From Nocardioides sp. S-1144 (GTDB taxonomy: Bacteria > Actinomycetota > Actinomycetes > Propionibacteriales > Nocardioidaceae), in assembly GCF_005954645.2 (NCBI RefSeq), contig NZ_CP040695.2, positions 1,860,001 to 1,924,000 of the forward strand: 64,000 nt of DNA, written 5' to 3'. Position numbers and translations under genes: made by a program. This document shows, in pieces, positions 20,809 through 24,709 of the stretch. Within the stretch, counting starts at the first letter, position 1. The number at the start of each line of letters is the position of its first letter. The notes beneath the pieces were generated by a model that worked only from the letters and a program-made list of their open reading frames with translations, had not been told where the DNA came from and made no database searches.

Positions 20809-22839
20809 GTGACCGAAACGCCCGACACCGCCCCGACCGCCTCGGCCAAGAAGCGGACCGGCGGACTCAGCGCGATGCTGCTCGCCGACCTCAAGTCGAT
20901 GGCGGGCGGGATGGGCATCGCCGGCGCCGGCTCGATGAAGAAGGCGCAGCTGATCGACGCCATCAAGGGCGCCCAGGCCTCGGCCGTGCCCGGTGGGTCC
21001 GGTGGGTCCGGCGACGGGGGAGCGGCACCCGCCGCCGCCCGGCGCCGCAAGCCGGCCGCGCAGGCGGAGGCCCAGGCCGAGCTCCCGGTGACCCCGTCGG
21101 AGGAGACCGCCGCGCCCGCCCGGGAGCGGCAGCCGCGGCGCCGCCGCGAGCAGGACCCGGCCGCCGGGGCGGCGTCGACGGAGCCGCAGCGACCCGGTTC
21201 GGCGCCCGCCGAGGCCCAGCCGGCCGAGCAGCGGCAGCCCGAGCAGGACCAGGCCGGGTCGAGGCGGTCCGAGCGCCAGGCCGAGCGCCAGGCCGACCGC
21301 GAGGCCGACCGCCAGGACGACCGCCCGGACGACCGTCAGTCGGACCGGCAGGGCGAGAAGAAGCAGGGCAAGCAGAACCAGGTCGAGAAGCCGGAGCAGA
21401 AGCCGGCCCAGAAGAGCGAGCCGAGGCCCGACCAGCAGTCCGACCAGGGCGACGGCGACGGCGACGGCGAGGGCCGCACCGGCCGCAACCGGCGTCGTCG
21501 CGGCCGTGACCGCAACCGCGTCGCCGGCGACGCGGGCGGCCAGGGCGGTGGCCAGGGCGGCCAGGGTGGAGCACCCGCGAGCCAGGGCCCGAAGCAGAAC
21601 GCCGGCAACCAGGGCAACCAGGGCAACCAGGGCAAGGACGGCGGCGGCCAGGGCGGCGGGCACCGGCACGAGCCGGACACCACGATCCTCGAGGACGACG
21701 TCGTCGTCCCGGCGGCCGGCATCCTCGACGTCCTCGACAACTACGCCTTCGTCCGCACCAGCGGCTACCTGCCGGGCGCCGACGACGTCTACCTGTCGCT
21801 GTCGATGGTCCGGAAGTTCGGGCTGCGCCGCGGCGACGCGATCGTCGGCCAGGTGCGCCAGCCGCGCGAGGGCGAGCGCCGCGAGAAGTTCAACCCGATG
21901 GTGCGCATCGACAGCGTCAACGGCCACGACCCCGAGCAGTCGAGGTCGCGGGCCGACTTCGACCGGCTCACCGCGCTCTACCCGTCCGAGCGGCTGCGCC
22001 TCGAGACCGAGTCGGCCAACCTCGTCGGCCGGGTCGTCGACGTCGTGGCGCCGATCGGCAAGGGCCAGCGCGGCCTGGTCGTCGCGCCGGCGCGCTCGGG
22101 CCGCACGACGGTGCTGCAGTCGATCGCCCAGTCGGTCAGCGTCAACAACCCGGAGTGCCACCTGATGGTCGTCCTCGTCGACGAGCGGCCCGAGGAGGTC
22201 ACCGACTACGAGCGCTCGGTCAAGGGCGAGGTGATCTCCTCGACCTTCGACCGCCCGGCCGGTGACCACACCGTCGTCGCCGAGCTCGCGATCGAGCGCG
22301 CCAAGCGCCTCGTCGAGCTCGGCCACGACGTCGTCGTCCTGCTCGACGGCCTGACCCGGCTGGCCCGTGCCTACCACCACTCCACCCCCGCGTCCGGGCG
22401 GCTGCTCGCCGGCGGCGTCGACGCCGCGGCGCTGCACCCGACGAAGAAGTTCTTCGGGGCGGCCCGCAACATCGAGAACGGCGGCTCGCTGACCATCATC
22501 GCCACCGCCGTCGTGGAGAGCGGCTCGGTGATGGACGAGGTGATCTTCGAGGAGTTCGCCGGCACCGGCAACATGGAGCTGCGGCTGCGCCGCGACCTCG
22601 CCGACAAGCGGGTCTTCCCGGCCATCGACCCCGTGCAGTCGGGCACCCGGCGCGAGGAGCTGCTGATGAGCGAGGAGGAGCTGGCGATCGTCTGGAAGCT
22701 GCGCCGGGTCCTGTCCAACCTCGACGGCCAGCAGGCGCTCGAGCTGCTGCTGGAGCGGCTGCGGCGGGCCGGCACCAACATCGAGTTCCTGATGAACGTG
22801 CAGAAGGCCACCCCGAAGAACGGGCAGGCGGCGATCTGA
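20809..22839 (+). CDS. rho: Transcription termination factor Rho with atypical P-loop
   Basis: A hexameric RNA-dependent ATPase that ends transcription; 676 residues against about 420 in E. coli. A Rho_N helical domain (about 15-60) is followed by a disordered Gln/Glu/Arg/Asp then Gly/Gln-rich stretch (about 65-285), an RNA-binding cold-shock domain (about 290-370) and the ATPase core. The catalytic Glu in DERPEEVT and the core motif [16 protein letters not shown] are kept. The Walker A lysines of the usual PPKAGKT are both Arg (PARSGRT, R429 and R432), and LLDSITR reads LLDGLTR (G514). GTG 20809 was chosen because GAAGGA lies 5 bases upstream; a GTG at 20788 is also in frame. Its stop overlaps the next gene by one base. 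Confidence 0.95.
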
Positions 22840-23204
22840 TGGCACGGATCGTGGTCGCGGACGACGACGTCGACATCCGCGAGCTCGTGGAGTTCAAGCT
22901 CTCCACGATGGGGCACGAGATCGTGGCCGTCGGCGACGGCGGCGCCGCCCTCGCGGCCTGCCGCGCCCAGCGCCCCGACCTGTGCGTGCTCGACGTGATG
23001 ATGCCCGGCGTCTCGGGCCTCGACGCGATCGCGATGATCCGCGCCGACCCCGACCTGGTCGGCCTGCCGGTGATCCTGCTGACCGCGCGCGCCCAGGAGG
23101 CCGACGTGGAGAGCGGCTTCGACTCCGGCGCCGACGACTACATCACCAAGCCGTTCAGCCCGCGCGAGCTGGCCTCGCGCGTCGAGGCGCTGCTGAGCCG
23201 CTGA
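22839..23204 (+). CDS. Receiver-only response regulator, coupled to rho
   Basis: A 121-residue stand-alone CheY-like receiver domain with no output domain. Acidic pocket residues D8 and D9, phosphoacceptor D52 ([10 protein letters not shown]), switch T82 and conserved K104 (YITKPFSP) are all present, so it should be phosphorylated by a histidine kinase. No kinase gene is nearby. The ATG overlaps the rho stop by one base, implying coupled translation. Its role is unknown; the coupling hints at a partner or input linked to termination or to an orphan kinase. Confidence 0.9.
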
Positions 23205-23206
23205 GC

Positions 23207-23242
23207 GGGAATGTGCGTGAACCCCCACGGGTTCACTACAGT
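23207..23242 (+). promoter_or_regulatory. SigR-type (thiol-stress sigma) promoter of rpmE, plus overlapping -10 and inverted repeat
   Basis: GGGAAT (23207-23212) is followed 18 bases later by GTT (23231-23233), preceded by G. This fits the SigR consensus GGAAT-N18-GTT of Streptomyces and Mycobacterium SigH. The spacer and GTT also hold an 8-base inverted repeat GTGAACCC/GGGTTCAC (23217-23236). TACAGT (23237-23242) directly after it could be a vegetative -10. In S. coelicolor rpmE is an established SigR target. Confidence 0.65.
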
Positions 23243-23305
23243 GCACCCGGTTCCGGTTCACGTCGCGCGCCGTGCGACGACCCGGAGCACCTGAGAGGAC
23301 ATGCC

Positions 23306-23530
23306 ATGAAGAAGGACACGCACCCCGACTACGTCGCCACGCAGGTCACCTGCACGTGCGGCGCGTCGTTCGAGACCCGCAGCACTGTCGCGTCGGGCAC
23401 CATCCGCTCCGACGTCTGCTCGCAGTGCCACCCGTTCTACACCGGCAAGCAGAAGATCCTCGACACCGGCGGCCGCGTCGCCCGGTTCCAGGCCCGCTAC
23501 GCCAAGAAGGCCGCTGACTCCTCGAAGTAG
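23306..23530 (+). CDS. rpmE: 50S ribosomal protein L31 (zinc-binding C+ form)
   Basis: A 74-residue ribosomal protein. Four zinc-ligand cysteines C16, C18, C38 and C41 (CTC and CSQC) mark the C+ type, as opposed to the Cys-free paralogue induced under zinc starvation. GAGAGGAC lies 5 bases before the ATG. A SigR-like promoter and an inverted repeat precede it, and a classic hairpin-plus-T terminator follows. The thiol-rich zinc site fits control by a thiol-stress sigma factor. Confidence 0.97.
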
Positions 23531-23541
23531 CGACGCCGCCG

Positions 23542-23584
23542 ACACCGACCTCCGCCCTCGAGCGGGGGTCGGTGTTCGCTTTTT
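23542..23584 (+). terminator. Intrinsic terminator of rpmE
   Basis: A 9-base stem ACACCGACC/GGTCGGTGT with a 16-base GC-rich loop is followed by TCGCTTTTT. This is the clearest factor-independent terminator in the window. Confidence 0.85.
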
Positions 23585-23635
23585 CGTCGATCCGTCGCCC
23601 ACGCCCCACCCGGTCGCAGCAGCCAGGAGCAGCCC

Positions 23636-24709
23636 ATGTTCGAAGCAGTCGAGGGGCTCGTCGACGAGCACCGCGAGATCGAGGGTCGGCTCGGCGAGCC
23701 CGAGACCCACGCCGACGCCCGCCTGGCCAAGCGGCTGAACCGCCGCTACGCCGAGCTGAACGCCGTCATCGGCGCCTGGCGCGACTGGACCGCGCTGGGC
23801 GAGGACCTCGAGGCCGCCCGCGAGCTGGCGGGGGAGGACCCGGCCTTCGCCGAGGAGGCCGACGACATCGCGCGCCGCCTGCCGGTCGCCGAGGAGCGGC
23901 TGCGGCGCCTGCTGGTGCCGCGCGACCCCGCCGACGCCAACGACACGCTGCTCGAGGTGAAGTCCGGCGAGGGCGGGGAGGAGTCGGCGCTGTTCGCCGG
24001 CGACCTGCTCCGCATGTACACCCGGTACGCCGAGCGCCGCGGCTGGTCGGTCGAGGTGCTCGACGCGACCGAGTCCGACCTCGGCGGCTACAAGTCCGTG
24101 ACCGTCGCGGTCAAGGCCAAGGGCACGCCCGAGCCGGGCGGGGCGCCGTTCGGCCTGCTCAAGTACGAGGGCGGGGTGCACCGCGTCCAGCGCGTCCCCG
24201 TCACCGAGTCGCAGGGGCGGGTGCACACCAGCGCCGCCGGCGTCCTGGTGCTGCCGGAGGCCGAGCAGGTCGACGTCCAGGTCGACGACAACGACCTGCG
24301 CATCGACGTCTACCGCAGCAGCGGGCCGGGCGGGCAGAGCGTCAACACCACCGACTCTGCCGTCCGGATCACCCACGTGCCGACCGGCATCGTCGCGAGC
24401 TGCCAGAACGAGAAGAGCCAGCTGCAGAACAAGGATCAGGCGATGCGGATCCTGCGGGCCCGGCTGCTGGCCGCCGCCCAGGAGGAGGCCGACGCCGAGG
24501 CCAGCGAGGCCCGGCGCAGCCAGGTGCGCACCGTCGACCGCTCCGAGCGGATCCGCACCTACAACTACCCCGAGAACCGGATCTCCGACCACCGCACCGG
24601 CTACAAGGCCTACAACCTCGACGCCGTCCTCGACGGCGACCTGCAGCCGGTCGTCGACTCGTGCGTCGAGGCCGACCTGGCCGCGCGCCTCGACGCGCTC
24701 GAGCAGTGA
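23636..24709 (+). CDS. prfA: Peptide chain release factor 1
   Basis: A 357-residue factor that releases peptides at UAA and UAG. The GGQ motif lies in [15 protein letters not shown] near residue 235. The PxT anticodon-like motif region appears as [12 protein letters not shown] in the preceding domain. CAGGAGC sits 5 bases before the ATG. The prmC start overlaps its stop by four bases, which fits function, since PrmC methylates the GGQ glutamine. Conserved order prfA-prmC-sua5-wecA-atp also occurs in mycobacteria. Confidence 0.97.

Follow-up and report, generated by a model that had tools for sequence, protein, structure and literature searches.

We report that rpmE, which encodes the zinc-type, four-cysteine ribosomal protein L31 in a soil actinobacterium of the genus Nocardioides, is probably driven by two nearly superimposed promoters, one recognized by the thiol-stress sigma factor SigR and the other of SigA type, and that both would feed an L31-responsive feedback leader. 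We put this reading at about three chances in four.

Layout of the rpmE locus

The gene lies in a 64-kb window, the whole stretch of DNA analyzed here (G000:C1:1860001-1924000), within a 4.43-Mb single-contig genome. An earlier sequence-only reading had noted GGGAAT-N18-GTT, an 8-base inverted repeat and TACAGT upstream of rpmE, and all three are in place (Table 1). Its remark that the L31 keeps all four cysteines also holds: they are Cys16, Cys18, Cys38 and Cys41 as counted in the translation, and the protein matches the L31 family. This is the sole L31 gene found in the genome (PF01197), so the species seems to have no second-L31 backup; many of the 58 genus genomes with L31 carry a second, longer L31 (PF01197). 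The upstream response-regulator gene is matched jointly with rpmE in 23 listed genus genomes and lies apart from it elsewhere, for instance by ~2 kb in G179.

Table 1. Features of the rpmE locus, in window positions
Feature	Position	Strand	Remarks
Single-domain response regulator (PF00072)	22839..23204	+	Gene upstream of rpmE
SigR promoter (predicted)	23207..23233	+	GGGAAT (-35, 23207-23212), N18, GTT (-10, 23231-23233)
8-bp inverted repeat GTGAACCC-CCAC-GGGTTCAC	23217..23236	.	Probably incidental; right arm overlaps GTT
TACAGT, probable SigA-type -10	23237..23242	+	3 bases past GTT, 6 bases before leader stem
L31-Actinobacteria ribosomal protein leader RF03158	23247..23291	+	Rfam match
GAGAGGA, probable ribosome-binding site	23293..23299	+	1 base past leader; inferred from sequence
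rpmE, ribosomal protein L31, 74 aa, four Cys	23306..23530	+	ATG at 23306; L31 family matches
Terminator-like hairpin, 15 pairs, with T run	23541..23576	+	3' of rpmE; terminator scan

A SigR box before rpmE

An exact GGAAT-N18-GTT occupies positions 23208-23233 and fits the SigR consensus GGAAY-N18/19-GTT, as quoted in the part of PMC5430705 that we consulted. The longer form GGGAAT-N18-GTT occurs once in the 64-kb window, where 0.06 occurrences are expected; when up to one mismatch is tolerated, GGAAT-N18-GTT turns up five times where 7.9 would be expected, and it is therefore the exact box alone that is unusual.

The box is kept before the orthologous gene: 48 of 57 genus genomes have GGAAY-N17/18-GTT 12-48 bases before the leader motif described below, while 5 of 1140 shuffles contain it anywhere. 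These 57 genomes, which include the studied one, come from 59 drawn evenly from the genus, G048 (without L31) and G027/L095 (missed by the start pattern) having been dropped. Searched as a single pattern, box plus leader is found in 148 of 215 genus genomes and the reversed pattern in none; this pattern is restricted to N18 and misses N17 boxes, and for two or more of the 148 (G187 and G210 among them) the sole listed match looks off target. In a sample of the phylum the pattern is found in 17 of 396 genomes (the reversed pattern in 2), a lower bound because the exact leader motif was demanded and a count that includes three matches that look off target (G539, G462, G221). The 17 take in all but one of the 11 genomes coded g4. 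By this comparison, SigR boxes ahead of zinc-type L31 are widespread in Nocardioides and are placed so that stress mRNA would carry the leader.

An L31 leader RNA between promoter and gene

The sequence-only reading overlooked an L31 leader RNA upstream of rpmE. The Rfam model RF03158 scores 45.8 bits there (E 6.1e-8), above its gathering threshold of 35, and the match begins 4 bases past TACAGT. Within it, a 43-nt hairpin (23249-23291) folds at -24 kcal/mol with a z-score of -3.1 against shuffles; the longer 5' stretch 23243-23308 is no more stable than shuffles (z -0.9). All 57 genus genomes carry the leader sequence pattern. A single base separates the end of the match from the probable ribosome-binding site, which would fit translational feedback. 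The L31-Actinobacteria leader has been described as a prediction, and the rpmE leader here is like it, with no difference found as far as that description was available; SigR has 0 occurrences in the portion of its text that was examined (PMC7247131).

A candidate SigA-type promoter at TACAGT

All 54 genus genomes with a leader anchor (the 57 above less L014, L021 and L023) have an A2/T6 hexamer ending 5-11 bases upstream of the leader, compared with 636 of 2700 shuffles, and in 45 of the 54 it ends exactly 8 bases upstream. Fifty of the 54 combine the hexamer with TT at -25 or -24, against 31 of 2700 shuffles. This TT is sharply positioned (34/54 at -25, 22/54 at -24, at most 1/54 at each position from -40 to -26). 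The studied genome is among the four without it, reading TGTGCG at -25, and a sigma-70 consensus scan requiring 9 of 12 matches finds no promoter in 23100-23700. The locus thus has a -10 hexamer at the conserved place and lacks a recognizable -35 and an overall sigma-70 consensus, so the SigA promoter may be weak or absent here.

These same observations would favor another account, in which the SigR promoter alone is real, TACAGT is spacer or start-region sequence, and rpmE RNA during growth comes by read-through from upstream; 3 bases separate the response-regulator gene from the GGAAT of the SigR box, and no terminator-like site is listed between them. Conservation argues against it: the hexamer position is kept in 54/54 genus genomes, including the nine that have no SigR box within range, and at that place G148, the closest relative returned by the genus search, reads TACGAT. 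We regard this account as improbable, though it fares best among the alternatives. On balance, we interpret TACAGT as the probable -10 hexamer of a SigA-type promoter just upstream of the leader. The sequence-only reading had offered a second regulator or a second promoter; the promoter half stands in part, carried by the hexamer in 54/54 genomes with the strict sigma-70 scan finding none, and the regulator half is not supported (see below).

The sigR-rsrA pair and other SigR boxes

One protein of the genome exceeds the SigR/SigH cut-off (TIGR02947, 358.7 bits), and its gene is directly followed by that for the redox anti-sigma factor RsrA (TIGR03988, 96.1 bits, cut-off 62.5). The same box lies 116 bases before the sigR ATG. 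The search for a SigR-RsrA pair that had been suggested as a check on SigR control therefore came out in its favor.

Similar -35 boxes can serve related ECF factors, and the GGAAT-N18-GTT before rpmE might be read by an ECF sigma factor of this genome other than SigR: the SigR/SigH model has 19 matching places at E <= 0.001, the second best at 118 bits. However, a single place passes the SigR cut-off, RsrA follows it, and GGAAY-N18/19-GTT is the consensus quoted for the orthologue (PMC5430705, consulted in part), which together make this substitution quite unlikely.

A SigR promoter for rpmE is accordingly a well-supported prediction, based on the exact box, its conservation, the sigR-rsrA pair and published control by SigH, and the sequence-only reading was right to propose one for a four-cysteine L31. 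Paget et al. in 2001 reportedly linked SigR to rpmE in S. coelicolor. In M. tuberculosis, SigH binds rpmE and drives its expression, and S. coelicolor SigR is cited alongside this control in the passages of PMC4803200 that we saw. Going by those passages, the present promoter is like these in sigma factor type, target gene and consensus box; it differs in being known from sequence alone.

Across the genome, GGAAT-N18/19-GTT has 31 matches against 4 for the reversed pattern, with an 18-base spacer in 24 of the 31. Other genes bearing a box include mshA, uvrA, those for DUF3107, DUF4193 and DUF7455 proteins, a sigma-70 family factor, a MarR regulator and three luciferase-like oxidoreductases. 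Several of the 31 are probably chance matches, lying inside likely genes or without a near downstream gene.

Some of these sites have features of their own. The sigR frame (L047:1985-2724; G000:C1:1653384-1654123) has a possible alternative GTG start 27 codons before the ATG and 35 bases past the start of its SigR box, which recalls the longer sigma-R' form of Streptomyces (PMC4921905, seen in part). Seven box genes (L043, L044, L047, L063, L064, L065, L066) have their start codon 32-37 bases past the first base of GGAAT, near the expected transcription start, and these may possibly give leaderless SigR transcripts. Another box (L059; G000:C1:2458648-2458673) lies 352 bases before a reading frame for IF3, and in Streptomyces this factor reportedly represses translation of sigR (PMC5472188, partial text).

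The inverted repeat

The repeat consists of GTGAACCC (23217-23224), a CCAC loop and GGGTTCAC (23229-23236). When 60-bp upstream regions are shuffled, 0.8% of them contain a perfect arm of at least 8 bases with a loop of 3-8. The window holds 37 such repeats, overlapping ones counted separately; the repeat is real and only mildly surprising. Presumably it is none of the LexA, Rex, Zur or similar palindromes, from which it differs in spacing or sequence. The exact repeat has a single copy in the studied genome. Copies with up to one mismatch occur in 21 of 214 other genus genomes, one of them exact (G103), and none of the 214 has a copy beside rpmE. G148 (87% identity) reads GGAATTGTGGCGACCCGGGTGGTGTTCACTACGATGC, with box and hexamer kept and the left arm lost. 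Before the leader, the longest perfect arm has a mean length of 4.5 bp across the 57 genomes, compared with 4.2 bp for shuffles, and arms of at least 8 occur in two of the 57, the studied genome included.

The repeat is thus neither conserved in orthologous promoters nor recurrent in the genome, and with no rpmE-side copies in relatives, the left arm lost in G148 and no enrichment, we rejected it as a conserved operator. The scan of relatives, which the sequence-only reading had proposed as a check, speaks against a second regulator acting there. That the repeat functions in the studied species only, as an operator or as a hairpin acting on read-through RNA, is very unlikely given these same losses, even with its perfect arms over the SigR -10, an RNA hairpin of -15.8 kcal/mol (z -2.5) and a left arm that, read from the sequence, has a second potential partner in the GGUUCAC of the leader. 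We consider the repeat probably incidental. As an intrinsic terminator it was discarded as well, having no T run and no terminator listed at the site. A SigR box elsewhere whose spacer resembles the repeat (G000:1486405) was dropped, its nearest listed downstream frame being 312 bases away.

SigR boxes occupy three registers relative to the hexamer

The gap from GTT to the hexamer in the 54 genus genomes is 11 bases in 26, 2-4 in 16 and 23 in three; nine have no SigR box within range. Among 76 named loci from several genera (80 at the outset; L145, L150, L172 and L175, without a leader anchor, were dropped), it is 23 in 52, 22 in one, 11-12 in five and 2-3 in four, and 14 have no box in range. 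A further set of 85 box-plus-leader rows, which takes in every listed short-span and long-span row and some of those with a mid span, contains 42 short-span sites (gaps 1-3), 39 mid-span sites (9-12, one unassigned) and 4 long-span sites (23); four matches that looked off target were left out of it (G066:C9, G164:C2:830874, G187, G210). The box thus takes three registers from GTT to the -10: 23, mainly in Streptomyces; ~11, in most Nocardioides; and ~3, in the studied genome. The locus studied here, with its box ~3 bases before the SigA-type -10, differs in this from the Streptomyces loci examined, where the gap is mostly 23. In some Streptomyces (L188, L189, L204, L206), a GGAAT-N18-GTT lies farther upstream of rpmE than the 23 register, perhaps as a further arrangement.

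The short and mid registers also differ in sequence. GATT lies within the SigR spacer in 39/39 mid-span and 0/42 short-span sites, and a T follows GGAAY in 38/42 short-span sites, 1/39 mid-span sites and 1/31 boxes of the studied genome; Fisher tests on this T ignore relatedness, and related rows are not independent. The simplest reading of these patterns is that the TT of the SigA -35 is fixed and would be fused with the SigR -35 where the register is short, and with GTT where it is 23 (as in GGTTTTGGG, found in many Streptomyces). The studied genome, with a G after GGAAT, is an exception to the short-register fusion.

On a PrfA tree, eight register changes are needed among rows with a box. 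Uniting the short-register rows in one clade is compatible with the data (p-AU 0.46, on 71 rows with the long-branch L109 left out and L129, gap 3, placed in the short register), and we therefore do not claim repeated independent switching. One register analysis used 94 of 126 rows, with part of the 23-register rows left out and L133, whose spacer is 19, entered as "none".

A model for rpmE control

We propose that thiol stress would oxidize RsrA and release SigR, whose polymerase would then use GGAAT/GTT and start near 23241-23243. In growing cells, TACAGT would serve SigA polymerase, with a start at about 23248-23250. Since both expected starts fall at the beginning of the L31 leader, the leader should be part of either transcript and keep it under L31 feedback: surplus free L31 would bind the hairpin beside the ribosome-binding site and lower translation. 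Cells under stress could in this way renew cysteine-damaged L31 without making too much of it. For M. smegmatis, a thiol redox table lists Cys16 of L31 with values that appear to rise under hypochlorite, from 20.2 to 39.6 and from 14.5 to 32.9 (PMC5430705, available part), and this suggests a purpose for SigR control of L31.

Because the promoters overlap, the two forms of polymerase should exclude each other. A similar arrangement is known from S. coelicolor, where sites of the ECF factor sigma-E overlap promoters of the principal sigma factor HrdB and blocking has been proposed. At some of these sites sigma-E reportedly represses, whereas both rpmE promoters would be expected to make mRNA (PMC10771440, as far as consulted).

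Apart from the registers, rpmE control here is a fresh instance of known parts. The register pattern is the sole element for which we found no description within the literature searched, some of it seen in part. Neither the registers nor the rpmE promoter pair is described there; the S. coelicolor SigR regulon and most subscription literature lie outside that search, which makes this weak evidence of absence. With the odds about evenly balanced, we suggest that in these actinobacteria the rpmE promoter is a composite: the SigA promoter keeps a constant place relative to the L31 leader, and the SigR box takes one of three discrete registers beside them. Two of these registers have bases common to the SigR element and the SigA -35, through GTT/TT in the 23 register and GGAATT in the short one. 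SigR would then replace the housekeeping polymerase rather than add to it, and its RNA would always carry the feedback leader. If true, this composite would provide a natural series for tests of sigma-factor competition at one gene. The discrete registers allow the interplay of stress and housekeeping polymerases at that gene to be tested directly in laboratory actinobacteria.
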